From assembly GCA_000415965.1 (NCBI GenBank), contig KE356560.1:1799296-1863295 (forward strand): a stretch of 64,000 nucleotides of DNA, given 5' to 3'. Positions within the stretch are counted from its first letter, which is position 1. The number at the start of each line of letters is the position of its first letter. The stretch is from Haloquadratum walsbyi J07HQW1 (lineage in GTDB: Archaea > Halobacteriota > Halobacteria > Halobacteriales > Haloferacaceae). Under the pieces are notes generated by a model. It ran no database searches and was not told the origin of the DNA. It worked only from the letters and a program-made list of their open reading frames with translations. Positions 176 through 29,522 of the stretch are shown in pieces. The position numbers and the translations under genes were made by a program.

Positions 176-829
176 CTATATTTCAGCAGGGATATCTCCC
201 ATACTGTCGGCGTCCAGTTCAGCGTCACTAAGCCACTTTTTCAGTTGATCACGTCCGTAGAGAGTGACATCTGAGTTAGTAGCCGCTTTTTTTGCACTAT
301 CAGTGTATCGTGAGGTGGTAACAACAGCGGCAGTATCGATTTCATATTCAGAATTATGCACCGTCACACCGGTATAAATTTCTTGAACGGCACTGTTACC
401 GACCGGATTTGCCTTATCGTAAGCTTTTGCTTGGATTCCGACTGTCTCCGACTCACGAAACCAAACCACATCGACACCCTGGTCACCCGATGCTCTGGTA
501 ACTGGCGCTTCACCGTCGATTCGGTCAAGAATTTCAGCGAGAACATGTTCGAATTCATACCCGGAGACGAGTTCCAGATCTGTGAGGTCCGTGTATCGGG
601 GAGACCGAGCAGATGTAGTTAACGAGACACTCTCATAAGAGTCCACTCGGCTTTGTTCGTCACGAATGATTGTAATAGCACGGTCGCGTGGAATATCTCT
701 GTTCCAGCGATGTTTGATAAGGGCCTCTGCTTGGGCACTGAGTGATGCATCAGTTGTCTCAAGAAACTCGGCGAGTGAGCTTGTAGTTCGAAGTTGCTCT
801 TTGAGATCGCGTCGGTCCCGGTTCGTCAT
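176..829 (-). CDS. Mrr-like restriction endonuclease
   Basis: A 217-aa acidic protein. The C-terminal half (about residues 85-200) has the layout of the Mrr-type (PD-(D/E)XK) nuclease fold: a GYEFEHVLAEIL helix, then GDQGVDVVW and GIQAKAY, which supply the Asp and the Q-x-K pair expected of the active site, and an SAVQEIYTG helix. The N-terminal ~80 residues are helical and not recognised. Mrr-family enzymes cut modified or foreign DNA, or act as nucleases of other defence systems; the target here is unknown. The ATG at 829 overlaps the TGA of the upstream broken Cys-rich gene as ATGA, so the two were translationally coupled. The catalytic residues look intact although the partner is not. Confidence 0.75.
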   Translation of the reverse strand: MTNRDRRDLKEQLRTTSSLAEFLETTDASLSAQAEALIKHRWNRDIPRDRAITIIRDEQSRVDSYESVSLTTSARSPRYTDLTDLELVSGYEFEHVLAEILDRIDGEAPVTRASGDQGVDVVWFRESETVGIQAKAYDKANPVGNSAVQEIYTGVTVHNSEYEIDTAAVVTTSRYTDSAKKAATNSDVTLYGRDQLKKWLSDAELDADSMGDIPAEI

Positions 830-1687: not shown

Positions 1688-1888
1688 ATGGTTCACCGAC
1701 AAGATGACCGCTTGCACGGGCAGGTGGTCGCCTACGAGGGCGACCGTCCGGTGGAGACCGCGAAGAACGGCATCCTCCGGGTCGGCAGTCACTCGAAGTA
1801 CGGCTTTGGTGAACTGCGAGTGAAGCCCGTCAAACCACGCTCGAATCAGTATCAGACATCAGAGAAAAAGACGAAGCTCACCGGGTGA
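1688..1888 (+). pseudogene. GC-rich gene fragment of unknown origin (3' end only)
   Basis: An ATG-led 66-aa stretch, much richer in GC than its flanks, ends at a TGA at 1886-1888. It contains RPVETAKNGILRVG followed by HSKYGFGELRVKPV. The Gly-rich G-x-H-x-K-Y-G-F-G-E-L segment recalls the C-terminal glycine loop of RAMP-fold (Cas5/Cas6-type) proteins, but this is only a pattern resemblance. It lies head-to-head against the 5' end of the Cys-rich gene, so it looks like foreign DNA that joined there. No function is claimed. Confidence 0.35.
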
Positions 1889-1955
1889 CATAACTCATGC
1901 GAGACTGAAGAATCGACACGAAAAAATCACCCCGCAGACTGAATAAAGAAATCGT

Positions 1956-2081
1956 ATTTGCAACAACTGTTATGAGCCTGAGACAGTCCCTGATGAAGAG
2001 TTGAGCCCGCTTGCGAGTCGCCTCCTCCTTGCTATGCTTCTGATTGGCGTGGTAGTCTCTTTGTTACTATTCTTCCTATAG
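1956..2081 (+). CDS. Small zinc-ribbon/membrane protein, start uncertain
   Basis: The frame reads CNNC, an acidic linker (YEPETVPDEELSP) and one hydrophobic helix ending LLLFFL before a TAG at 2079-2081. The single CxxC pair plus transmembrane tail is typical of tiny haloarchaeal membrane proteins. No ATG, GTG or TTG lies in this frame after the preceding TAA; the only possible start is a rare ATT at 1956, so the 5' end may have been lost. About 41 aa. Confidence 0.35.
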   Translation: MCNNCYEPETVPDEELSPLASRLLLAMLLIGVVVSLLLFFL

Positions 2082-9442: not shown

Positions 9443-9562
9443 TTACCAGTCGTTGGCAATATGATCAGTGTTTATATCCGAAACCACACTCAGTTCGACT
9501 AGAACGCCCGGTGACGCGTTCCACTTCGGATACAGAAATCAAATTACAAACAACTGTTACGC
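9443..9562 (-). repeat. Dispersed nested-palindrome element, copy 1
   Basis: Read on the minus strand it follows the layout of the element at 12731: an outer arm ending in CCAACGACTGGT, a middle arm TATCCGAA/TTCGGATA and an inner arm GGAACGCG/CGGGCGTTC. There are several substitutions and a shortened first half. No intact coding frame lies in it. Confidence 0.7.
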
Positions 9563-9886
9563 AGTCAAGACGGCTTCGGCATGTGTTTACCGTCTCTCAC
9601 AGCATAGATGCCGCTGACTCATCAATTGCTCTAGAGACTCGAATCAATCAAGCAGGCGTTGAGGAGTCGAACATTCCCCAACGCCTCATGCTGCGTTTGT
9701 ATCCGAATAGATAGTGACACCCCCTCATCCAGTGAGTCGACACGAGACATATATCCTGGAAAGCGTGTAACTCAGGGGTATCCGTGTAAGAATCAGAGCA
9801 AGAGATAATCGAATCACACGTCACAAACGTCATTATCACGAGACACAGTCAGTGATATCCCCAGCTTCCTGAGAGTGATGATTCCC

Positions 9887-10156
9887 TCACGAGTTGTTTT
9901 TTCTCTGTCCAGACGAGACAGCATCGATGAAAGCGAGAATCACGGATCCAATCGGAAGCATCACTACCCCGAAGACAATCGGTGGAATCTCCCCGAGTAC
10001 CATGGAGTGTTGAGCAACCAGACCGATACCCCACCCGCCAAGGAGAAGAGTGGGTGCGAGAATAGTCATGAGCATCTTCGCAATTCGTGGGTGATTCCAT
10101 TTAGCATCATCTGTCCAGAGCAACCGAGAACTGAGTCTCTCTACGAGTGTAGACAT
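9887..10156 (-). CDS. Small membrane protein
   Basis: An 89-aa protein with a charged N-terminus (LLWTDDAKWNHPRIAK) and two hydrophobic helices at about residues 30-48 and 57-78, ending in a polar tail (SSGQRKNNS). Probably an integral membrane protein. It is not assigned to a family. It stands alone between the dispersed element and the beta-lactamase-type gene, on the same strand as the latter. Confidence 0.5.
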   Translation of the reverse strand: MSTLVERLSSRLLWTDDAKWNHPRIAKMLMTILAPTLLLGGWGIGLVAQHSMVLGEIPPIVFGVVMLPIGSVILAFIDAVSSGQRKNNS

Positions 10157-10279
10157 CCCTCAATCCAACCCTTGCAACGGCAAGTTATCATGATTATGAT
10201 CATCCTCAGACTGTCACAGAAACCATCTCACGATAAACCATCTGACGATCACTGATGTGTCATCTTGGGTATGAAAAAG

Positions 10280-12223
10280 TCACACTCCCATCAGGTTCCA
10301 GTACGCGAGCAGCCAGGCGAACACCAGCAGCGCCGCCGTGACAACGGTGTAATGGATGCGTCCAAGAAGCCCCCAGAACTGCTCGCGCCAGGCTAAGGCG
10401 GTCGCGCCAACGGCAGCAAGGCTTCCGATAGTTCCCACCAGCGGCGCGGCAAAGGTGACTGTTGTCCACCCAGGCAGACCGTACACAATCGCATTGGGAG
10501 TTAGCCCGACAGCGAAGATGAGCCCAATTGGCGCTGCAATTAATAGTAAACCACTCACCCCGACAAGCACACGGGCAACGCGGGGTCGGCGCTCCATCGG
10601 CGGGCGGTCTTCAAGGTATCGATAGAAACCGGCACCGACCCACCCGACCATCGTGAGAATAAGCAATGACATCGACGCCGCAAAGCCGGCAGTCTGACCG
10701 AGGGGGTTCGCTAGCGGACCAAGTGGACGGAACACACCCAACGAGTTCTGGACCATATGTGTAATTTGGTCGTCCTCAGCCCGGAATGCAAGGCGCTCGT
10801 GACCGTCGATTTCGCGAAACACGAGCGGTTCGATCTCAACCCAGCGTTGAGAGTCAGCACCAGGTGCAACTGGGTCGGTGATGAGCGTGCCGTCGTTGAT
10901 TCGTACCTGTACCGTCGCGCTGGCACCGATGAGTTTCGTCGGCTCGGTCGCAGATATCCGCGTGCTTCGGTACCAGCCGGTGAGTTCATCCGCTCGCGTC
11001 GGTGTTTCACTCGAAGGCTCGATGGTTGGAAGTTCCGGCGTGGCGAACTCGTTAACGAACGCATCAAAGAGCTCCTGTCGCGCCTCGATCCCGCCTGCGG
11101 TATTGTATGAGAGAAAAAGCCCCATGTCTCGCTCGGGGAACAACGCAAGCAGACTGTGGAACAACCGTGTATCGCCTGCATGACCGACGATTCGTGTGTC
11201 CCCCCGACTCATCTCATAGAAGCCGTAGCCGATACCATTGACAGCCGGATGATTCTGGAATCGAGCATTATGCATCCCTGTAATCGTCTTCGGGCGGAGG
11301 TACTGCTCGCCGTCGAACTCACCACGCTGAAGATGCAGTTGCATGAATCGCGCCATGTCCGTCGCAGTGGCGCTGATCGACCCTGCCGGTCGGAGGGGAA
11401 CGAACTCAAACCCGCGCTCCTGGAAGCCGTCACCGGTCGCAACGTAGCCCTTCGAGACCGCCTCACTCAGCTCGCCATCCGGCGGCTGGGCGGCTGTGCT
11501 CTTGTTCATCCCGAGCGGCTCGAACACCTCCTCGCGAATGTGGGTGGCGTAATCGGTCCCTGCAGTCGCGCTGGTTACATACCCTGCTAGCCCGACTCCG
11601 TAATTTGAGTACGTGGCAAACTCACCGGGAGGGCGCACGCGTGTCGGTGGGTCTGCTTTGACTGCTGTTTCAAGCTTTGGCATCGATTCCGCGGTATCGG
11701 TGAACACCCCCGAGACGACACTCTCAAAACCAGCTATGTGGGTACCTAGATGCTCAAGCGTGATTGGAGTATTGTACTCACCAGGGAACGACAGCCCATC
11801 GACATACTCGCGGACATCCGTCTCAAGACTGAGCCGACCAGCCTCAACCCCGCGCATGACCGCTGTCCCCGTGAGAGACTTCGATACGGAGCCAATCCGA
11901 AACAGCGTCTCATCAGCCTTCACCGGTTCCTCGGCAGCGACGTCTGCGAGACCGTATCCCTCGCTCAGACGTCGTTCGCCATCGGCAACGACCGACACTG
12001 TCGCACCTGCAATATCGTGTTCTTCAAGTTGTTCCGGAAGTCGGTCGTCAAAAAACGACTGAACTGCGTCTGTCGAGATTGGGTCAGTAGTCGTCTGCGC
12101 CGGCGTGCCTCCAGGAGTAGTAGCCGTCGCGGTTGTCGTTGCCGTTGTGGGTCCAATCGCCATAGCCGTCGCCGCTGTCCCAACCCCAGCAAGGAACCGG
12201 CGTCTGCTTTGCTCACTCGACAT
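10280..12223 (-). CDS. Tat-exported beta-lactamase-family serine hydrolase with C-terminal membrane domain
   Basis: A 647-aa class C beta-lactamase/DD-peptidase-fold protein. The N-terminus has a twin-arginine signal (SRRRFLAGVG) and a Thr-rich linker to ~residue 48. The catalytic domain (50-400) carries S-V-S-K at 112-115, a YSN motif (TYSNYGVG) and HAGDT as the third motif. A beta-rich segment follows, and the last ~150 residues hold about four membrane helices. Archaea have no murein, so it probably hydrolyses esters or peptides outside the cell rather than acting on antibiotics. The gene is noticeably GC-richer than its surroundings, which hints at acquisition from a higher-GC haloarchaeon. 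It starts at the only sensible ATG, just ahead of the Tat signal. Confidence 0.85.
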   Translation of the reverse strand: MSSEQSRRRFLAGVGTAATAMAIGPTTATTTATATTPGGTPAQTTTDPISTDAVQSFFDDRLPEQLEEHDIAGATVSVVADGERRLSEGYGLADVAAEEPVKADETLFRIGSVSKSLTGTAVMRGVEAGRLSLETDVREYVDGLSFPGEYNTPITLEHLGTHIAGFESVVSGVFTDTAESMPKLETAVKADPPTRVRPPGEFATYSNYGVGLAGYVTSATAGTDYATHIREEVFEPLGMNKSTAAQPPDGELSEAVSKGYVATGDGFQERGFEFVPLRPAGSISATATDMARFMQLHLQRGEFDGEQYLRPKTITGMHNARFQNHPAVNGIGYGFYEMSRGDTRIVGHAGDTRLFHSLLALFPERDMGLFLSYNTAGGIEARQELFDAFVNEFATPELPTIEPSSETPTRADELTGWYRSTRISATEPTKLIGASATVQVRINDGTLITDPVAPGADSQRWVEIEPLVFREIDGHERLAFRAEDDQITHMVQNSLGVFRPLGPLANPLGQTAGFAASMSLLILTMVGWVGAGFYRYLEDRPPMERRPRVARVLVGVSGLLLIAAPIGLIFAVGLTPNAIVYGLPGWTTVTFAAPLVGTIGSLAAVGATALAWREQFWGLLGRIHYTVVTAALLVFAWLLAYWNLMGV

Positions 12224-12730
12224 GATCCTCTGGTTACAGTTTATTCCTTAGCGCCTGTCATAAATACCCAGTGATCACTTCAATCGCTGCAACGCGGGTT
12301 GGCTGTCGGGGGGTGCCAAACCAGCAGCTCAAATGTGGTCCTAATTAGTGATTGCTCCCTCAGCAGCTTCATGAGGGACTCCAGTCAGGTCCGCAGTGTA
12401 AAGAACTATTCTCGTTATCATTACTTTTATACCAAACACATCAACAATAATATTACATCAATATTAAAATTAGTGAGCTCGCTATCGAATCGTTTCTCCC
12501 AGCCATATAGTTCACACTTGCATACACGCGAAATCTCACATATATTTTTTCGCTGGTGTGCCCGCTCCGATGACCGTATGTGATCATCTGAGAAACCGTG
12601 TTGTCGTAACCCGCAACCGTTCAATCATCGTTCGTCGATGAGAGATTTTCATCAATCACGGGGGGTGTCTCGACACAAAGACGCACAGATGCTTGGACGC
12701 CAAGATATTTTGATTGTGGAATCCAATAAT
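12224..12730. other. Intergenic stretch without a supported gene
   Basis: AT-rich DNA between the hydrolase start and the dispersed element. It should contain the hydrolase promoter. I see no conserved frame or structured RNA. Confidence 0.4.
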
Positions 12731-12852
12731 ACCAGTCGTTGGGACTGTAATTTTTTTATCCAAAGCGGAACGCGCAACCGGGCGTTCCAGGTGAAATCAG
12801 TCTGCGTGTGGGTTCGGAGAGAAACACTGGTCATACTACCAACGACTGATAC
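12731..12852 (+). repeat. Dispersed nested-palindrome element, copy 2 (best outer arms)
   Basis: The outer arms are a perfect 10-bp inverted repeat, CAGTCGTTGG at 12733-12742 and CCAACGACTG at 12839-12848. The inner hairpin is GGAACGC at 12767-12773 against GCGTTCC at 12782-12788. The interior (GTGTGGGTTCGGAGAGAAAC) is shared with copy 3. It could be a small non-autonomous mobile element or encode a structured RNA. Confidence 0.8.
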
Positions 12853-12927
12853 ACAGAGAAAGTCGAATCAGTGAATCAAAAAAAGTGATAATGATACCGA
12901 CGTCAGTCAATCAACGCTATATATCAG

Positions 12928-13107
12928 TCACTGGACGGTCTCCAGATCAGGGATACAGAGATTACAGACTGGTTTATCAGAGCCATCTGAGTGTGTGATT
13001 ACTCGGACGTGAATATCATAATACATCTGTTCTTGTTCATCAACGACACCGCAGTAAACGCACTCGCTCTCGGATTCGGAGTCGAGTTTGGGTTCGTTCT
13101 CAGTCAT
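12928..13107 (-). CDS. Zinc-binding microprotein with two CxxC knuckles
   Basis: A 59-aa protein from ATG 13107: an acidic leader (TENEPKLDSESESE), a first knuckle CVYCG, a beta-like segment (QMYYDIHVRVITH) and a second knuckle CNLCIPD. This four-Cys arrangement is typical of the one-domain zinc-finger microproteins common in haloarchaea, several of which act as regulators. It begins 2 bp after the stop of another Cys/His microprotein gene on the same strand, so they form a pair. Its own target is unknown. Confidence 0.6.
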   Translation of the reverse strand: MTENEPKLDSESESECVYCGVVDEQEQMYYDIHVRVITHSDGSDKPVCNLCIPDLETVQ

Positions 13108-13109
13108 AG

Positions 13110-13229
13110 TTAATTTCCGTCTGTGATAGACAAATGACCGTTGATTCCGTGTTCAGAGCATTTTCTCGCAAGACAATCAGCCGATGTGTGACCGTGACCG
13201 TCGGTGCAGTTGTGATATTTGCATGACAT
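13110..13229 (-). CDS. Cys/His-rich microprotein
   Basis: The likely start is the ATG at 13229, giving 39 aa: CKYHNC, then HGHTSADC and KCSEHGINGH, four Cys and several His that could hold one zinc ion. A longer in-frame reading to 13340 adds a leader without such character. It ends 2 bp before the 59-aa zinc microprotein, with which it should be co-transcribed. Function unknown. Confidence 0.5.
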   Translation of the reverse strand: MSCKYHNCTDGHGHTSADCLARKCSEHGINGHLSITDGN

Positions 13230-13552
13230 TTGATACAGTAACCAACTGAATTGGACAGTCACGTCGCGTCTGAATGCCGCCTGGAGAGTTATACTGAGAA
13301 CACATGCGGTATCTGAGAGACGGACGGATGCGGAGAGCACCCATTGAGATCTCTTTATTTTATCTCAAGAGATAGAGTGAGACTGTACTGAACAGTCCGA
13401 CCTATCTCAGGTGTGTGATAATGTCTGAAGACGCGATCTCCATCGTTTCCGATGGCATCTGTATTCGTGATTGAAATATCATAATTGTTTTGGACTGTTA
13501 TATCTGAACACAGAGAAATTCAGGTGTCGATTCTCACCAATTGGACCCGTTG

Positions 13553-13685
13553 TATCAGTTATTGGGAATTTGATTTTTATCCGAAGTTGCAGCGGAACGC
13601 GTCATCGGGCGTTCCAGCTGAACTCAGTCTGAGTGTGGGTTCGGAGAGAAACACTGGTGACATTACCAACGACCGGTATGGATAC
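13553..13685 (+). repeat. Dispersed nested-palindrome element, copy 3
   Basis: It shares TATCCGAAGTTGCAGCGGAACGC, the inner hairpin and GTGTGGGTTCGGAGAGAAAC with the other copies, and ends in ACCAACGACCGGTAT. A partial copy of the left end may lie at about 13484-13516 (TTTTGGACTGTTATATCTGAA). Confidence 0.75.
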
Positions 13686-13820
13686 TGTTATCTCCATCCA
13701 TGTTGGGACTCATAGTGATTAGTGCAAGTCTTTACCGCCGTAATTATCCGTGTCGGTGATGGGAGCCGCCGAACCCGCGTCATTCGACACCGTCGGTGAA
13801 ACTGTTCGAACTAATCGCTA

Positions 13821-14431
13821 TCACTCATCATCAGCCCCCGTTACAACATCGAAAACGGTGATCACGGACGCTCCGAAAGCATGAGTAAACACGGTGACTA
13901 GGAGAAGAAAGCCGCTCACCACAAGAAGCCTACGATTCCAACGAAACACCATCCCAAGGGTAGACGCAGACCCAGAACGAGATACAGGGTTATCGCTGAG
14001 ACCGGGGATAGCAGTCGTGGTGGTGGTCGCGGTCGCAGTGAGTGCTGAGAGAATCCAGATGAACAGCGACACTAACAGTACTCCAGCTATGAGCGTTTTG
14101 AGAAGTTGAATCCCGTCATGCGCGATAGATGCAATATCACGCGTCTGATAAAAAACGGTCCCTGATGACGAATCTCAAGAAAGCCAGAGACAACCGCATA
14201 CACCGCAAGAAGGGTGACACTGGTGAATCCAGCGACAACGATCATCATCCCAACGTCGAGTATTGAGGTATCACCGTCCAATGCAGTAAATACTCCAAAA
14301 ATGATGATTGGGAGTGCAATAATCCAGATACCAACTGCTACGATAGCCAATAACGTCTCAACCCAGAGCGCATTCGTCAGAAACCACTTTTGAAGTTGGT
14401 TATCACTAACAGGTGATGAGAAGGGTACCAT
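13821..14431 (-). pseudogene. Membrane protein gene split by a frameshift
   Basis: The first frame (14431 to 14087) gives about three membrane helices (LLAIVAVGIWIIALPIIIFG, then VGMMIVVAGFTSVTLLAVYA) and ends in an unlikely basic tail. The following frame, open through the overlap, reads TVFYQTRDIASIAHDGIQ, LLKTLIAGVLLVSLFIW, a Thr/Ala-rich loop and a last helix ending VVTGADDE. Joining them near 14150, in the sequence around AAAAAACGGTCCC, gives one coherent four-to-five-helix protein of about 200 aa. Either a pseudogene or a programmed shift. The family is unknown. Confidence 0.5.
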
Positions 14432-14858
14432 ATTCCCATCTTTTAACCATCAATATATAGTTTATGTGACGGGTTGCAGTGGATGTAACAGACAGCATTC
14501 AACTTACTCTGTCGGCTAACAGGTAGCCCCGGGTCAAAATCCGACTCCGACCTCGACACGAAAGCGGTCGTTCGTTCATGATAATACCGACGCTAATGAC
14601 GACAACTGTGAGTACAACTGTCACCGTCTCTGTTCTCGTGGCTGACGTGTGGTGCAGGTTTCAGTTACGACACGAGTCACAATACCCCCTCGAAGCGGTT
14701 ATTTTGTGCACGTCTCTCCGTCAAAAAGAAAAGATGAGCCTGCGCATCCAAGGGACACAAAAGCAGATATGAACGTATGAAGATTGAGAGATTACTCGTC
14801 AGGCACTCATACCCACTGTCACACTCACGATTACCGTCACCGTCAATCGGTGAGTGTC
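14432..14858. other. Intergenic stretch without a supported gene
   Basis: It contains a few short frames on both strands with no recognisable character. It must hold the promoter of the split membrane gene to its left. Confidence 0.3.
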
Positions 14859-15173
14859 TCACCCAATCACACGACTGAGGGTAAAAGCTGTAATAACTAC
14901 GTAGATGACCGCACCGACAGTACCCACTGCACGGATAATGAGACCGCTCGTTCCAGGAACTTCGAGTGTTTTCGGCGAGCGAATATATCCAACGCTCCCA
15001 CTTCCGATGAGCAAGAGCCCACCAAATATCCTCACAGCGGATCCGAGTGGTGCAGACCCCACAACCACATCAACTGCGCCCTGGATAATCATAGCTCCCC
15101 CCATCGCGCTAAGGGTAATCCACACTGACGGTATCCACGAATCTATGAATGAATACCATCGCTTTGACGACAT
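14859..15173 (-). CDS. Small membrane protein
   Basis: About 104 aa from ATG 15173 (MSSKRWYSFID); a TTG four codons up is less likely. There are three hydrophobic segments: WITLSAMGGAMIIQGAVDVVVG, AVRIFGGLLLIGSGSVGYI and LIIRAVGTVGAVIYVVI. It resembles the other orphan haloarchaeal small membrane proteins in this zone in layout but not in visible sequence. Function unknown. Confidence 0.5.
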   Translation of the reverse strand: MSSKRWYSFIDSWIPSVWITLSAMGGAMIIQGAVDVVVGSAPLGSAVRIFGGLLLIGSGSVGYIRSPKTLEVPGTSGLIIRAVGTVGAVIYVVITAFTLSRVIG

Positions 15174-15492
15174 CAGTGGGTGCAATAGGGGACCACATAA
15201 AAAAACTCGCGCAGTCTAAATTGATTTCCTGTTACATCTGGGTCAGGATACCCGTGTCTCATGATGCATCACACGAGCAGAAAAGCGTCCAATTGATTCC
15301 AAATATTCGAAGGTCAACTCCAGTTATTTGAGCAAATAAAGAATCATACTGCAGATCATCACACAGGAACACTACTATTTCTGAGAATCAACTAACACGA
15401 GCGAGAATCTGACTGCGAATTGAGCCGGTATTGATTTCCTGATTGTGATATCCTCTCCATTGATCGGTGATTATGTCAGCAGGAGGTCGATG

Positions 15493-15613
15493 CATATCAG
15501 TTGTTGGGGATTTGATTTCCGTATCCGAAGCGCAACGCCTAGCCGGGTGTTCCAAGTGAAGTTAATGTGGGTTCGGATAGACACAGTGGTCATATTGCCA
15601 CCGACTGATATAC
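15493..15613 (+). repeat. Dispersed nested-palindrome element, copy 4 (best middle arms)
   Basis: It begins ATATCAGTTGTTGGGG and ends CCACCGACTGATAT. The middle arms GTATCCGAAG and GTTCGGATAG pair well. The inner hairpin is degraded (CAACGCC/GGTGTTCC). Confidence 0.75.
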
Positions 15614-15922
15614 TGTTGAGCGCTGTTGTGATCAACTGAATTGAATTTGTCTCACACTACTCGTCTCAAAAGCAGCCTCACCAGTATTCAGACTCACACG
15701 CGATTCGCAGTGCATATGTTCACCAGAATTTCTCAGTTTCTGTCAAGTGACGCCTCACTGTTGTTGTCGAAATTGCGACTGAGCCAAAGTGAAAGTCACA
15801 TTGACAACGTAATCACTGCAGTATCATTGACAAATAATCATATCATTTCAATATTGAAACCAACCGGTTTCGACAAATTTATACAAGTCTGATATGTGTG
15901 CATTACGTACTATTTCATATCT

Positions 15923-16509
15923 GTGTCAGAGTTTTCTCGACGGTCACTCATACTCGGAACAGCAGGGGTCGCCGCTGTAGGGGTAGGAGTCACAGCCGCC
16001 GCATCAGGACTCTCTGGAAGTGTTGAAGGACGAGCCGACGTGCAAGCTGAACAAGCGCTGACAGTGACGGGGTTACCATCAATTCAACTGTGGACGCAAG
16101 CTTCAAGCGAATTTCCGACGACAACACAGAATTTCAGGTCGCTGTTGAACTCAACACTGGTGATGATGTCGTATTCCTCCCCGAGGTGTCAAACAATGCA
16201 GCAGATAGCCTCGATGTTCAAATCACAATTGACTCACCAGACATGATTGATATTGCAGTTGGAATCGACTACCCGACTAGCGGCGGTTCCAGTGTGGGCG
16301 ACAATGACGCAAACGTTGACGACGCAAACGCTCAAGATGGGGCAATCAAAACTGGAGAAAGAACATACGTTGCGACGCTTCCAGGTAGCAGTACTAATAG
16401 CAGTGAGGGTGACAATACGATTGCGATTGTTGCCGAAGTTGATGATACCGCAGACGCTAGCTCCTACGACATCGGTGTGGCAATCAACCCACTCAGCACC
16501 GACAGCTAA
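15923..16509 (+). pseudogene. Tat-signal secreted protein gene with one frameshift
   Basis: The 5' frame from GTG 15923 encodes a twin-arginine signal (FSRRSLILGTAGVAAVGVG) and a processed-looking region (GRADVQAEQALTVTG). The next frame carries the rest: TINSTVDASFKRISDDN, FQVAVELNTGDDVVFLPE, an Asp/Asn-rich loop and DTADASSYDIGVAINPL up to a TAA at 16507-16509. The switch falls near 16070-16080, at GACGGGGTTACC, where one base would restore a single ~195-aa acidic exported protein. A beta-rich surface protein is likely. Either a pseudogene, a sequencing slip in the G run, or phase variation. Confidence 0.55.
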
Positions 16510-16593
16510 CGACTCGATTCAGATTTAATTGTCCTCCGACACTCGTCGCCGTGTGAGTCCACAAGGAGATAATTCAAGTCCTCGTCGCTGCCC

Positions 16594-16630
16594 TGCGTTG
16601 GCGTTGGCGCTGGCGTTGGTGTTGGTTTTG
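16594..16630. repeat. (GCGTTG)n-type hexanucleotide tract
   Basis: Five to six imperfect units of GCGTTG/GCGCTG/GTGTTG just downstream of the frameshifted secreted-protein gene. Confidence 0.75.
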
Positions 16631-16638
16631 ATTATCTT

Positions 16639-17243
16639 CTATCGCCATTTTTTATCGACTGTCATCCCTAATGTATCGATCTGTTCGAGGGTAACGGAAT
16701 TTGCTGGGACAGACTCTTCAGGGGCAGCTGTCACGACCCACAGCAAACGACAAAATGGATTTGCACCCTGAATTGTGAGTGGATTCTGTGCCTCCTGTTC
16801 GTCTTGACTCTGCCATGTAGAGACCATACTTTCGACCCCGATTTCCAGTTCTCGAGATTCACTTGGCTCGACTGTCTGTCCTGTGAGATATTCGGGGTTC
16901 ATCTGCGCGTCCCTTTCTTCCGCAGTGGATACCTCAGTTGCTTTTTTGACTGAGAGAGTGATTCCTTCCGTCTCTGCACTGTCCTGCGAAGCAGGTCTTG
17001 CAAATACTCGTCGTGCAATTCTTTGATTCGCGGCGGAGCTGTTTTGTCTTTTTTTCATCCACTCCCGGGGAGGTCCTCAACTGTCATAATCAACTCTTTT
17101 GCTGCGGACTGAATGAGTTGAGAGTCATTCCCTTCTGTTGAGAAGCGTGGGTCCTCATTCCCATTGCTAACGCACCCTCCAATTGTAACTGTTCCCACAG
17201 TACTCAGAGCTGACAACAGTGTTCTTCGCTGCATGAGTCTCAT
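16639..17243 (-). pseudogene. Lipoprotein gene split by a frameshift
   Basis: The 5' frame (17243 to 17055) encodes a signal with RR and a lipobox (QRRTLLSALSTVGTV, then IGGCVSNG) and stops after MTVEDLPGSG. The second frame starts with an ATGA overlap at 17058 and gives 139 aa, including PEYLTGQTVEPSESRELEIG and SLTLEQ-type beta segments with no signal of its own. A signal-only first product and a signal-less second one argue for a single ~200-aa lipoprotein with a shift at about 17056. Termination-reinitiation cannot be excluded. Confidence 0.55.
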
Positions 17244-17708
17244 TCCAATTGCTCTATTTGCGAACTGAAAACGACCAAGCAGTGCTTCACACTGAGAAAT
17301 AGTCCATGGCAGTGTCGAGTTCGATTGTCCCGAGTTATGAGTTCAATTCATCAAGTCTATTGAGGACGATGCACTGAGGTCGACGATTCATTGATATACA
17401 CGAGTGTCGATGGTAGTGCTCTGTTGAATAGCGGTGCTGACCGACGGGTCGGAATTTGAGTCGGCTTGCTGGCGATTGTTGTGAGTGATCTCAAGATTGG
17501 TCTCGTCTCACCGTGGCTTAGAGGCCGCTGTTCAACACGGCAGATGGTAGTAGGATATGGTGAAATGTAGTAATCTCGCGGTGTTATCTATTATTATCGG
17601 TGTATCAACCAGTCTTTCTGGACACCGTATAGACGGGCACGAAACAGTAATCAGAAAAACGCCCGTGCGGACAGATTAACTCATGAATAAATATTATCAG
17701 ACAGCAGA
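17244..17708. other. Intergenic stretch without a supported gene
   Basis: Between divergent genes; it should hold both promoters. No conserved frame seen. Confidence 0.35.
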
Positions 17709-18113
17709 ATGATGATAAGATTGATGACACCAATTGTGAACTTTCTTGTCCCGTTACAGAATGATGGTGGCGGTATCCTTGGCATAATCGCCCCTTTGGC
17801 TGTCACTATCGTTATTTTCGCTGGATTCTGGAAGACATTCGAGAAGGCAGGTGAACCGGGATGGGCTGCAATTATTCCGATATATAATTTCTATGTATTA
17901 ACAAAGATAAGCGACAACGCGTGGTGGTGGGTAATTCTATTTTTCGTTCCGGTGATCCAGGTTTTTGCCTTGGCAAAGATTAGTATTGATGTAGCTGGCA
18001 AGTTCGGCAAAGGCATCTTATTCGGTCTTGGACTGACGTTTTTATCATTCATTTTCTTTCCGCTTCTTGGGTTTGGAGGCGCCCGATATCAGGACGCTAC
18101 ACAACTCGGCTGA
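17709..18113 (+). CDS. DUF5684-like membrane protein
   Basis: A 134-aa integral membrane protein with helices at about residues 22-40, 74-95 and 100-120. The segment FEKAGEPGWAAIIPIYNFYV, followed by a WWW-rich helix and AKISIDVAGKFGKGILFGLG, is characteristic of the small DUF5684/signal-peptidase-neighbour membrane family found in archaea and bacteria. The short C-terminal tail is YQDATQLG. Function not known. It has its own promoter region and no operon partner. Confidence 0.7.
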   Translation: MMIRLMTPIVNFLVPLQNDGGGILGIIAPLAVTIVIFAGFWKTFEKAGEPGWAAIIPIYNFYVLTKISDNAWWWVILFFVPVIQVFALAKISIDVAGKFGKGILFGLGLTFLSFIFFPLLGFGGARYQDATQLG

Positions 18114-18236
18114 AACTGTATCCGGATAATCGCCGAAGCGACATCTCTCAGACTCGGAGTGAGAAGACATTCAAGAAACAATTGCTGTACTCAGCAACTG
18201 GGCTCTCTGAATAATACTGAATGACGGAGGAGACAG

Positions 18237-18579
18237 ATGAGTGGCTTTGTTGAAATCCTCAAAGAATTACATGCTTGGTCTGTTATCCCCCGAGTGAAGG
18301 CCCTCCTGAAGTCACAGATCCTCCGGGTGACTGAGAAGGCAATCCATCTGGCACACCGAACGGTCTCCCGATACTCCTCACAGCTCTCCACACACCGCTA
18401 TACACTTCCACAGCACGTTTTTCTGCTGTGTCTCACAGTGCGGGAAGAACACGACCTATCGTGGTTTGCTTGATGAACTAATCGAGATGCCACGTATCTG
18501 TCGAACCCTTGGCTTATCTGAACTTTCTCCGGTATCAACGCTCTGTCGGGCTTTCAATCGAGTGAGTATGACCGTGTGA
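18237..18579 (+). pseudogene. Transposase remnant (N-terminal part, frameshifted)
   Basis: It reads VIPRVKALLKSQILRVTEKA, then HVFLLCL, and after a one-base shift near GTGCGGGAAGAAC continues KNTTYRGLLDELIEMPRICR, LGLSELSPVSTLCRAFN to a TGA at 18577. This is the typical N-terminal region of haloarchaeal IS5-group (DDE) transposases. The DDE catalytic part is absent, so it cannot be active. I found no clear terminal inverted repeats. It marks the left edge of a GC-rich decaying region. Confidence 0.6.
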
Positions 18580-18825
18580 CATCTCTGAGTGACTCTTTCA
18601 GCGACGCCCCTGCCGACGTGAGCGAGACAGAACCGACACAGTAGCTGCGGCAGTAGTGCCGTTGGAAGTTTCACAGAGATGTGACAGGGGCACTGATTTT
18701 AGCTGCGTTTCTCCGCCCGAGACACGGAACAGGAAGTATACGGGAGACGACCGATCAGCCGGCATGACAGAGGATGTCTCAGCGGGCGGGTCCAGCCCCG
18801 AGGTTGACTGAGCGACGTCACACTC

Positions 18826-19328
18826 CGACACTTACTCGAATCGGGCGTATACGTGGCTTTCACGGAACGGGATTTATGTCTGGATCGGGGCTTCCGTCGT
18901 AGCAATAGCGCTCGGAGCATTTACTATCCCGCGTTCCCCTCGGTTCATTAGCAGCAATCGGCGGAGGAGTCGATACTCGCTGGCGGAACCGCCATCGTTC
19001 TCCTCTGTACTGTCTTACTACTCGGCTTGGCAGTCGTACTACTCAGTTACGTATACTTAGAGGAATATCGTCGGGGGCGCTCCGCTCGTCGGAAACGGCG
19101 GTACGCGGACGCTCACATATGATGGGATTCGAGCGCTAGAGACGGTCACGGCGGGAACGTTCATCAGCGGACTCTTCACGATGCTCGGACGAGTGGCTTC
19201 AGTGGGTACTGGTCCGACAATACTCTCAGTTACCCGCGATCGGGCTCCCGGTAACAGTGTTAGTACACGCAGCCGGGCGCTTTGTGTTGCTTGTCGTTGA
19301 CACGGGCTCGGAACCCGCCGTCGAGTAA
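18826..19328 (+). pseudogene. Membrane protein remnant with several frameshifts
   Basis: GC-rich DNA whose coding signal jumps between frames: SNRAYTWLSRNGIYVWIG and a hydrophobic helix; then GGTAIVLLCTVLLLGLAVVL with an RRGRSARRKRR loop; then YDGIRALETVTAGTFISG; then DEWLQWVLVRQYSQLPAIG and AAGRFVLLVVDTGSEPAVE with a TAA at 19326-19328. At least three shifts are needed. It looks like one decayed multi-helix membrane protein of about 165 aa, brought in with the higher-GC island. Confidence 0.45.
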
Positions 19329-19354
19329 ACACTCGTGAAATTCCTCGGTCCTGG

Positions 19355-19849
19355 TTAGCTGGTCTCGTTTGTCTGCGCGAGATCCGAGAACGACTCTCCG
19401 ACTCGAAGCGCGATTGGTTCAGTTTCCTCGCTTGAGCCAATAGAGATAGCGACGATTTCCTCTTCAGTACTAGTAATCGAAAATCGCTGACTCAGCCCTG
19501 AAGTTCCTGCTATCACGGTATCCGCGAGCTCCAAATCAACATGATACTCGCCGGTGGTGGTCCATACGTCGGCGTAGGCGACGATATTGCTCTCACCGTC
19601 TGACTCGGTAGAGGGAACGTCGAAGGAAGTATCAAGGACCGTCTCGCCGTCGGGATCTACAACCTCAATCGACCCGCTAACCTCCTGATTCAACTGGTTG
19701 AAGAGGTTGACCTGTTCGAAGATTCGGTTGCCGACCGCGTCAAGGACTGTCGAGCAACCGGCGGTGGACGCTACGGCGGCGCTGGCACCGATTGCGAGGG
19801 CTTGACGACGCGTAACGGAGTCGAATGGCGAGCGTATATGTTGATTCAT
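19355..19849 (-). CDS. Tat-type lipoprotein of unknown function
   Basis: About 164 aa from ATG 19849 (MNQHIRSPFDSVTRRQ). The leader has TRRQALAIGASAAVASTAGC, a twin-arginine signal ending in a lipobox, so the product is exported and lipid-anchored. The mature part begins with STVLDAVGNRIFEQVNLFNQ and looks beta-rich (SGSIEVVDPDGETVLDTSFD, GEYHVDLELAD), reminiscent of an immunoglobulin-like fold. The gene is GC-rich like the remnants on both sides but is itself intact. Confidence 0.65.
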   Translation of the reverse strand: MNQHIRSPFDSVTRRQALAIGASAAVASTAGCSTVLDAVGNRIFEQVNLFNQLNQEVSGSIEVVDPDGETVLDTSFDVPSTESDGESNIVAYADVWTTTGEYHVDLELADTVIAGTSGLSQRFSITSTEEEIVAISIGSSEETEPIALRVGESFSDLAQTNETS

Positions 19850-19969
19850 CGTTAGGAGGCATATTGCCATTGATGTGATTTTGGATTAAATCCGTTTGGA
19901 GTGTCTCTGGCGGTGAAATCGATTGATGGGGTCGAGGAAATGACTGTGATTGCGTCCATCAGCAGGAGC

Positions 19970-20590
19970 TCACGGTTCTCCCGCGTGTTGACCGCGAGTC
20001 CCAAGAGGTGACCACAATGTCTCGAAGCTTGATCGGAGGCGATTGCTGAATGCGTCCGCTGTTTCGGCGTAGATACCGGTGACCGTCAGCCTAGCACGTG
20101 TGGTAAAAAAGGTGTAGGGCAGTTCCGCCATCGCCAAGCCGCCCAAACTCGAACCGTCACCGAGTTGCCGAACACCACAGTTGACAAGCCAGAGGCAGAG
20201 ACTGATTCCGTGACTGTGCTGGAACAGCGACTCACCGTCGTCGCGTACCGTGATTCGCGTCTTATCATTGACCGTCGACGGCATCGTCTCAATTTCGACT
20301 TCCGAGGAGTCATTACCGTGTCTGATGACGTTCCCGACGAGCTCACTTACCACCAACCGAAAGGTAGCTGTATCAGTCGGTGGAGGAGCCTCTGTGGAGT
20401 ACAGTTGAATCGTCGCTTCGTCGTGAGACTCACCGAGGTCGGCGACGACGGACTCCAGTACTGTTCCGACTCTGCGACTTTCGGTTGTTCGTCGTCCTGA
20501 AGCATCTGACTGACGGCACGCGCCTTAGCTCAGTTCTGAGAGACTGTTCGCAATATCGTGACTGCTTTCGGCGTATTCTCGGATGACCTT
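19970..20590 (-). pseudogene. Histidine kinase remnant (dimerisation and ATPase parts)
   Basis: The frame to 19970 contains an ATPase N-box (LVVSELVGNVIRHGN) and ITVRDDGES, followed by a degraded G2 region. In-frame sequence upstream (VGTVLESVVADLGE, ATIQLYSTEAPPP) belongs to the same protein, and another frame further up reads YAESSHDIANSLSELS and KARAVSQMLQDD, the dimerisation region. A TAA and at least one shift separate them, and no sensor domain is left. The C-terminal residues after about 20130 are frame noise. Confidence 0.5.
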
Positions 20591-21016
20591 GTCTCATACA
20601 CGGTGGGTACAGAAACCGCAAAACAGGGTATGATCACTCCACCTGAAGATTCAACGCCCGTAGCCTTACACGGGACCGTTGACGACTTCGCACATGATCT
20701 TGAGTTTATATGGTAAATGAACGGACAGGAGAGTTCTGTCTTCACGACGCTTTCTGGTCTCAGATAGATAATAGTGAACGCAGGAAACTATCGCAGAAAC
20801 TTGATTTTACATGCTGATACATCCGGTGAAACGACGTGGTGCCCGGTAATCATAGCGCCCGTGCTGACCGATCTAATCTAATCTGATCGAATCGGAAACA
20901 ATTCTATATGAGATACGCGCTCTGCATCTAGGGTATCTCTAAGAATATATCGCTGACTGAGGATTTCAACAAAGTCAAATGAGTGCGTGGTTGAATCCGA
21001 TAGGGACTATTCGTTA
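20591..21016. other. Intergenic stretch without a supported gene
   Basis: Probably the 5' debris of the kinase remnant at its left edge and plain AT-rich sequence beyond. Nothing else can be supported. Confidence 0.3.
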
Positions 21017-21370
21017 TCATCCACATGCTCGCTCGATTTCTCGGTGTGAGTCTGGGTCTGATCTTGAGTTGAGAGACGCAGTATCATCATTCGTTTCAGC
21101 GTCTGTGTATTGATCATCGTGGTTGTGGTTGCTCTCTCGTTCACGAACGGTCGCAATCCGCTGTTGTGCGTCAGCCACCGCATCAAGGACGGCAAATATC
21201 CGATAAAATCCATAGACGCCCAGCGTTAACATGAGCATCAAAAGCCCACCCAGTAGAAGTTGCGCAGTAACGATGAGTGAGTACACGAGAATGAATAGAC
21301 TGATTCCTCCAAGAATGATTCCTGGCTTTGTTCGAAGGGCCTCTGAGGGCGAAAGCGGGTCATGGACCAT
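21017..21370 (-). CDS. Small membrane protein with a long polar tail
   Basis: About 117 aa from ATG 21370 (MVHDPLSPSEALRTKPG). Two hydrophobic helices, IILGGISLFILVYSLIVTA and LLLGGLLMLMLTLGVYGFY, form a hairpin. The last ~50 residues are hydrophilic and acidic (DAETNDDTASLNSRSDPDS). Cytoplasmic-membrane protein of unknown function, standing alone. Confidence 0.55.
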   Translation of the reverse strand: MVHDPLSPSEALRTKPGIILGGISLFILVYSLIVTAQLLLGGLLMLMLTLGVYGFYRIFAVLDAVADAQQRIATVRERESNHNHDDQYTDAETNDDTASLNSRSDPDSHREIERACG

Positions 21371-21520
21371 GTGCAATCCTCAGATTGAATTCTAAAAAGT
21401 GACTCGAAGCATCCGGGCGATCACCGACGTTATGAGAGCACCACTGTTGCACCTCACGGTCACGTGATGACTGCTGTGACCGTGACAGATGTCAATACCA
21501 ACAGAACTGTGAACTGCCTT

Positions 21521-21647
21521 CTCACCAGTCGGTGAAAATATGACCACTGTGTCTATCCGAACCCACATTGAGTTCACCTGGAGCGCCCGGTTACGCGTTC
21601 CGCTGCAACTTCGGATACAGAAATCACAGTCCCAACAATTGTTAAAC
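21521..21647 (-). repeat. Dispersed nested-palindrome element, copy 5
   Basis: Read on the minus strand it starts AACAATTGTTGGGACTGTGA and contains TATCCGAAGTTGCAGCGG, the inner hairpin and GGTTCGGATAGACACAGTGG, ending TTTTCACCGACTGGTGAG. It is very close to copies 2 and 4. Confidence 0.75.
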
Positions 21648-29095: not shown

Positions 29096-29522
29096 CGGGT
29101 CCTCCAGTTATCTCTTCGAATGAGCCTCCTTCTCTGTGGGTGCCGTGATAGCCCAAGACGACAGCATTTGCAACAATGTAATCTATCACATCTCATAGCA
29201 ACGTAATCATACATAAATAACACGAAGATATTGACAATTATTTCCAGTCACCGATTAAATTATTATACTCCGCCACACAATAGTGGCGTGAGATGAGGGA
29301 ACTTCTTGCTCAATGACTCCGAAATCACCGCTGTATATTATTCGTGCGGTCAGCTATGACACACAATCGTCAGTCTCTTGGCCGCAAGATGTGGTATCCA
29401 TGTTTGTGAGTAGTGATAATCCAGTCGCTGGGGTCATAATTGGACAATGAACAAATTGAGATACCTCAGACCCCGGAGACAAACCCAACAGACGATGCCG
29501 AAAACCTGGTCAGGACCGATGT
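29096..29522. other. Divergent promoter region, DUF3830 / amidohydrolase
   Basis: It carries no gene. At about 29417-29445 the stretch TAATCCAGTCGCTGGGGTC resembles the left end of the dispersed element, perhaps a solo end. Confidence 0.3.

Follow-up and report, generated by a model that had tools for sequence, protein, structure and literature searches.

The 64,000-nucleotide stretch of the Haloquadratum walsbyi J07HQW1 genome analysed here (contig KE356560.1, positions 1,799,296 to 1,863,295; the window) holds five copies of a short repeat built of nested inverted arms, together with pieces of a larger transposon and a restriction endonuclease gene (Table 1). The source genome is a single contig of 3,475,501 bp and is 89.6% complete. 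A sequence-only reading of the window had described the five copies, taken them for a folded RNA or cruciform, and proposed searches for further genome copies and for target-site duplications and a test for compensatory changes between the arms. We find that the repeats are members of a family of miniature inverted-repeat transposable elements (MITEs), which are non-autonomous DNA elements and apparently non-coding. They are very probably moved in trans by a transposase, their likely parent being a larger transposon that has the same ends and bears a cassette resembling the haloarchaeal RAMP (HRAMP) system.

Table 1. Coordinates of the MITE copies and other features in the window
Feature	Position	Strand	Details
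MITE copy 1	element 9447-9556; with duplications 9443..9560	-	TTAC/TTAC flanks; from bounds and alignment
MITE copy 2	element 12733-12848; with duplications 12729..12852	+	ATAC/ATAC flanks
MITE copy 3	element 13556-13675; with duplications 13552..13679	+	GTAT/GTAT flanks
MITE copy 4	element 15498-15607; with duplications 15494..15611	+	ATAT/ATAT flanks
MITE copy 5	element 21526-21641	-	flanks TCAC/TTAA, duplication not recognisable
Cas5-like (HcasC) remnant, residues 255-308	1715..1876	+	tblastn E 7e-17, 63% identity across 54 aa; second homologue, 85% across 39 aa
HRAMP-type transposon terminal repeat CAGTTGTTGCAAATACGATTTCTTTATTCAG	1939..1969	-	TTAT follows at 1970-1973; end shared with L168, L169, L176, L195
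Mrr-type restriction endonuclease	179-829	-	PF04471, E 7e-20

The MITE family in the window and the genome

All five copies were present and mutually alignable, with the inverted arms and both orientations that had been reported for them; copies 1 and 5 run opposite to copies 2, 3, and 4, strand being defined relative to the core hairpin. An exact 4-bp target duplication of the form NTAN flanks four of the five. The outer arms form the terminal inverted repeat, CAGTYGKTGG followed by ~8 bp. An outer arm had been rightly recognised and drawn too short: the arms measure ~18 bp and are imperfect; across 51 copies, positions 7, 11, 13, and 15 each lack a pairing partner about half of the time or more often. 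The middle and inner arms are palindromes within the core and have no visible counterpart in the likely parent. Most elements are 110–134 bp long (98–147 bp among the extracted copies).

Further copies proved to be numerous. The BLAST search of the source genome with copy 3 as query returned the best 40 of 149 candidates. At no more than one mismatch, the terminus CAGTYRKTGGNANTNTGA matched 143 times on the forward and 137 times on the reverse strand of the 3.48-Mb genome, 280 matches in all, compared to 0 forward matches and 1 reverse match for the reversed-pattern control. If both ends of every element are recognisable, this corresponds to roughly 140 elements; a few of the ends are those of transposon remnants instead. 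The copies lie genome-wide, and the 9–22 kb accessory zone to which they had seemed confined is not special. Exact terminus matches were obtained in 5 of 17 genomes of the genus (121 in the source genome and 14, 13, 9, and 4 in the others), and the other 12 gave zero matches to the exact end pattern. Copy 3 had no match at E 1e-5 in plasmid and phage records, and one core pattern searched in viral contigs had no exact match there. The placement of all copies between genes, as described for the window, holds for the wider family: the midpoint falls in an open reading frame (ORF) of at least 150 aa for only 2 of 63 extracted copies, versus 38% of positions drawn at random from the same loci. The view that this is a multi-copy inverted-repeat element and not a coding remnant was likewise upheld. 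A partial end near 13484 and a solo end near 29417, both suggested by the sequence-only reading, were not among the window matches at up to 3 mismatches, the site at 29422 being a 10-bp match with 1 mismatch; the transposon end at 1969 had been overlooked.

Within the family, core insertions of varying length (GAGTGT/GTGGGT type; alignment A5 columns 77–100) separate groups of copies. A segment with two old MITE-like ends occurs twice in tandem, about 1.2–1.7 kb apart, at L046 3940–6565 (L numbers designate loci). Distant MITE copies at L005 and L010 have near-identical flanking DNA, and so were probably duplicated within a larger segment.

The search for target-site duplications was also positive. 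The two flanks agreed best over the 4 bp immediately adjoining the ends (z 7.3 versus shuffled pairing, 32 copies). In 63 copies taken from fetched loci of the source genome, for which, where several end pairs were possible, preference went to those whose flanks agreed at 3 or more of the 4 bases, an exact 4-bp duplication was present in 22, compared to a mean of 3.18 and a maximum of 9 over 1000 shuffles. The NTAN form, with TA at its centre, accounts for 21 of these 22. Target sites are diverse, with a weak palindrome around NTAN. Characteristics by which MITEs are recognised were found: the elements are short, present in many copies, and placed outside long ORFs, they have terminal inverted repeats and target duplications, and their ends and duplication type are common to larger elements.

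Larger transposons and their HRAMP-like cassette

The likely parent of the MITEs is a transposon of 6–7.3 kb that likewise has CAGTTGTTGG ends and is flanked by NTAN duplications. The parent was sought first among the ends of the source genome, where only MITEs and fragments were obtained. Among ends in related genomes that had no partner at MITE distance we found, in L070, a 769-bp element with both ends and TTAG duplications, the right end of which recurs in larger loci. The 18-bp MITE end pattern fits the ends of L070, L074, L077, L088, and L091 with 0–2 mismatches, these loci having themselves been found through that pattern. Complete elements with a transposase span 3.2–7.3 kb. A scan that required CAGT-type similar ends and a 4-bp duplication, not the NTAN form, yielded complete elements at L144 (3834–11125, 7292 bp, GTAA), L148, L151, L152, L153, and L154, which enclose transposase and HRAMP-type genes and whose duplications are all NTAN. 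Two further elements with similar ends, L157 and L160, have no HRAMP gene. Since the ends were first located by requiring identical 4 bp, the duplications of L144/L165, L148/L188, L151–L154, L164, L173, and L187 are not independent evidence, apart from the NTAN form where the scan left it open; the locus sets also overlap (L144 is L165, L148 is L188, and L088 is L164, among others). Where seven end pairs were located by end sequence alone, identical 4 bp flanked five of them (L198, L205, L091, L161, and L237), and the flanks differed in L147 (CTAT/TTAA) and L195 (ATAG/ATAC); at a looser end pair, L098–L099, 3 of 4 flank bases agree. No transposase match was found inside L187 and L198, indicating that the cassette can form non-autonomous elements too. 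As side observations, the L144 transposon, in Haloferax sulfurifontis, appears to split a DNA cytosine methyltransferase-like gene whose halves flank it (read from the sequence without a family search), and TnpB-like genes with a Cas12f1-like TNB domain lie inside the transposons at L153 (12984–13640) and L157 (7295–8686).

The transposase of the larger elements is a DDE-type protein of ~618 aa (618 aa in L144), a distant relative of ISH3 transposases and encoded divergently from the Cas cassette. It matched the ISH3 model NF033541 at E 1e-25 in L144 and 4e-38 in L148, and PF01609 at E 3e-8; the scores against the ISH3 model (90, 131, and 61 bits for L144, L148, and L160) all lie under the curated cut-off of 225 bits. 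In a search of 392 genomes of the order the transposase was found in 19 at E 1e-15, and in the surrounding loci of up to 20 kb HRAMP-type genes or fragments adjoin it at 15 of 20, two of the 15 being in the source genome. Its neighbours are a winged-helix protein and DUF7718; at L151 (8709–9005) and L152 (10880–11468), this pair is replaced by ParE-like (weak, below cut-off) and ribbon-helix-helix proteins.

The conserved cassette consists of a Cas7-like (HcasA), an unknown (HcasB), and a Cas5-like (HcasC) gene, and in L088 the shared right end follows the three genes and a divergent transposase fragment precedes them. The L144 homologue of HcasA matched Csm3 models (E 9e-5) and TIGR03986 (E 9e-4) weakly, and that of HcasC matched Cmr3 models (E 4e-6); Pfam RAMPs scores were 15.5 and 12.6 bits versus a cut-off of 22.1, and the TIGR03986 score was 18.8 versus 161. 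Profile searches of the cassette proteins against the PDB returned nothing significant (best Csm4, E 0.14), and the predicted structures of HcasA and HcasB, with mean pLDDT (a per-residue confidence score) of 50 and 54, were too poor for a fold search. Judged by sequence, the cassette resembles the array-less HRAMP system. In order to avoid choosing loci by their transposase, we searched 84,980 named genomes with a Cas7-like alignment and obtained 44 loci, nearly all labelled haloarchaeal; the query came from transposase-linked loci, so that other HRAMP branches may be missed. The non-haloarchaeal titles were three uncultured archaea and one Elusimicrobia (L196, on a 3-kb contig, perhaps misbinned). 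A matrix for the transposon end located 43 ends in 751 kb, compared to 3 in the reversed control. A locus counted as testable if its Cas5-like gene was complete at the 3' end and enough sequence was available, which was the case for 35. In 25 of them no more than 200 bp separates the Cas5-like stop from a transposon end, as compared with 3 of 600 positions drawn at random; some of these ends lack the terminal CA and are probably decayed. No CRISPR array was seen inside 7 elements, L151 having one two-copy 25-nt repeat, and no dedicated nuclease was recognised in the complete elements looked at, in scans covering part of their ORFs. An HNH-like protein, noted by reading without a family search, is encoded ~3 kb outside the element in L088.

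Co-evolution of HRAMP and transposase found no support when tested: their pairwise identities show no correlation (rho 0.12, p 0.29, 13 loci), and between L144 and L149 the Cas7-like proteins are 93% identical and the transposases 34%. These results suggest that the cassette has probably been exchanged between several transposase lineages, lying next to one end in all cases in which an end was located, which fits cargo. The HRAMP-like cassette would most likely be transposon cargo, acting as a defence module of the kind proposed for HRAMP in the available text of PMC8730458. We infer the following sequence of events: a transposase supplied in trans would move the short MITEs by means of their terminal inverted repeats, and each insertion would duplicate 4 bp with a TA centre. 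The acting enzyme would be the ~618-aa ISH3-related DDE transposase of the larger elements, which would themselves bear the Cas7/unknown/Cas5 cassette beside one end. A more elaborate arrangement, in which a Cas5/Cas7 complex and the ISH3-like transposase form an array-less Cas-assisted transposon that controls where or when movement of the element and its MITEs takes place, perhaps guided by RNA of the element or the MITEs, we consider unlikely.

Alternative explanations and known systems

The proposal of a folded RNA or cruciform had included the claim that substitutions in one arm are matched by the other. This was assessed in 51 of the 63 copies, 12 copies, mostly the lowest-scoring or doubtfully paired, having been dropped before the count. 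Across three helices with 33 pairs, standard pairs were present in 84.9% of cells versus 84.5% with partners shuffled, so that matched substitutions are not seen beyond chance. Double-change cells numbered 39 versus 34.5 shuffled (as high in 69 of 500 shuffles), and the covariation score was 0.108 versus 0.101 (as high in 39 of 500). RNAalifold predicted no pair on the 51-copy alignment, and Rfam gave no match in the window at gathering thresholds. A covarying RNA family was rejected on these grounds. A structured regulatory or guide RNA family, spread as DNA and selected for its RNA fold, would agree with an inner hairpin kept in 90% of cells, with single-strand fold z values below -2 for 6 of the 10 strands examined, and with the measure most favourable to covariation, 13 pairs with a double change versus 9.3 shuffled (14 of 500 shuffles). 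However, inverted repeats alone would give such z values, and pairing and covariation near shuffled levels, the lack of a consensus structure, and the lack of an Rfam match make such a family very improbable. The outer 18 columns are two conserved, slightly differing ends, with position 7 unpaired in 27 of 51 copies, as expected for a terminal repeat read by a protein.

Two other accounts keep the repeats as mobile DNA. Small mobile repeats (SMRs) are described in Haloquadratum, and SMR-A, at ~110 bp, agrees with the present repeats in size, organism group, and prominent inverted ends (PMC3119063); the available description defines SMRs without target duplication and with ends unrelated to any transposon, whereas duplications and matches to larger transposons were found here. 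This sets the two apart by description, and identity with SMR-A is very doubtful. The repeats could also be MITEs of an unrelated transposase whose likeness to the HRAMP transposon ends is convergent, as might be read from a common stretch of only ~18 bp and an unrelated core. Yet the reversed 18-bp pattern matches once in 3.48 Mb with one mismatch and once in 17 genomes with none, and the end pattern sits at duplication-delimited ends of larger elements, with a 4-bp NTAN duplication alike, which renders convergence quite unlikely.

Several observations weigh against a parent transposon that bears the cassette. For the MITEs themselves, no exact duplication flanks 41 of the 63 copies, which is expected of old copies but also of wrong boundaries. 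No convincing match to the MITE core was found in 12 transposons, and the ~18 bp are all that MITE and transposon have in common, though this is often so for MITEs. For the cassette, no HRAMP gene is present at 5 of 20 transposase loci (L146, L155, L157, L159, and L160), and 10 of the 35 testable HRAMP loci have no end above the score limit, L175, L177, and L201 being near misses by eye. The end matrices were partly built from ends at scored loci; the count becomes 21 of 30 when the five that contributed such ends (L165, L174, L177, L188, and L193) are left out. At 26 of 44 HRAMP loci, several of them on short contigs, the fetched flanks show no transposase match, and among the 18 with a match several are short fragments, that of L206 being 25% identical and 6 kb off. 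Finally, the source genome, 89.6% complete, yielded no intact copy of the parent transposase; as assembly frameshifts can be sequencing errors, an active copy may nevertheless exist.

MITEs are known in H. walsbyi and other prokaryotes (PMC3119063, PMC10969869), and the accessible part of the former already describes a Haloquadratum MITE all of whose parent copies in the same genome are broken. The repeats are thus a new family of a known kind, sharing with the MITEs described in those excerpts short length, terminal inverted repeats, target duplication, and ends common to a transposon. They differ in that their ends point to a HRAMP-carrying transposon, and their copy number exceeds the 55 MITEs listed for each H. 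walsbyi strain in the available text (PMC3119063). The transposase is clearly related to the haloarchaeal ISH3 family of DDE enzymes (NF033541). In the portion of PMC10264941 available, Halobacterium ISH3 elements are ~1.4 kb with 5-bp duplications, whereas the present parent has a ~618-aa transposase, 4-bp NTAN duplications, a length of 3.2–7.3 kb with cargo, and 61–131 bits against the 225-bit cut-off. In the available text, HRAMP is described as a CRISPR derivative that lacks an array, has an unknown mechanism, and is predicted to serve in defence (PMC8730458). The cassette is like it in having Cas7-like and Cas5-like proteins nearest to type III models, an unknown conserved protein, and a haloarchaeal distribution (PMC8730458, PMC12669027, as far as their accessible text goes). 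Elements checked here are also alike in having no array inside; they differ in that no dedicated nuclease was recognised in the complete elements looked at, and in that the cassette lies at a transposon end. CRISPR-associated transposons are Tn7-like elements with Cascade or Cas12k. The present elements are similar in that Cas-derived genes lie inside a transposon with a DDE transposase; they differ in having another transposase, no array seen, and diverse TA-centred, weakly palindromic sites.

The MITEs are ordinary in kind, and the surprise is the link between HRAMP and a transposon. HRAMP-type cassettes on ISH3-related transposons were not found in the literature reached, part of it as excerpts; the founding HRAMP paper (Makarova and colleagues, FEMS Microbiology Letters, 2019), which is outside that literature, may mention them. 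The link may help explain how a poorly understood CRISPR relative spreads. If the cassette is usually at a transposon end, transposition explains the spread of HRAMP across haloarchaeal families, and its role, defence cargo or transposon helper, becomes testable; the MITEs, with their many natural insertion sites and ends, provide material for such tests.

Transposon remnants in the source genome

The transposase search of the source genome recovered 15 pieces. One weak match (E 2e-4, 42 aa) lies inside a 368-aa open frame that may be a separate, ordinary-sized transposase. Remnants with both ends and matching duplications are present at L091 (1773 bp, ATAG), L161 (2670 bp, ATAA), and L237 (876 bp, ATAG), their transposase and HRAMP genes being fragmentary or split between frames. 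In the L234 cassette the Cas5-like match is full-length and an end (TTAT) is present, but the Cas7-like gene is in two partial pieces ~8 kb apart and HcasB is split. The larger copies in this genome look decayed, and the family may be immobile or moved by a copy not seen. At the start of the window, a piece corresponding to HcasC residues 139–228 lies just upstream of the Cas5-like remnant, across the window start (L233). The Mrr gene lies between these two pieces of the broken Cas5-like gene and was apparently inserted into the HRAMP remnant.

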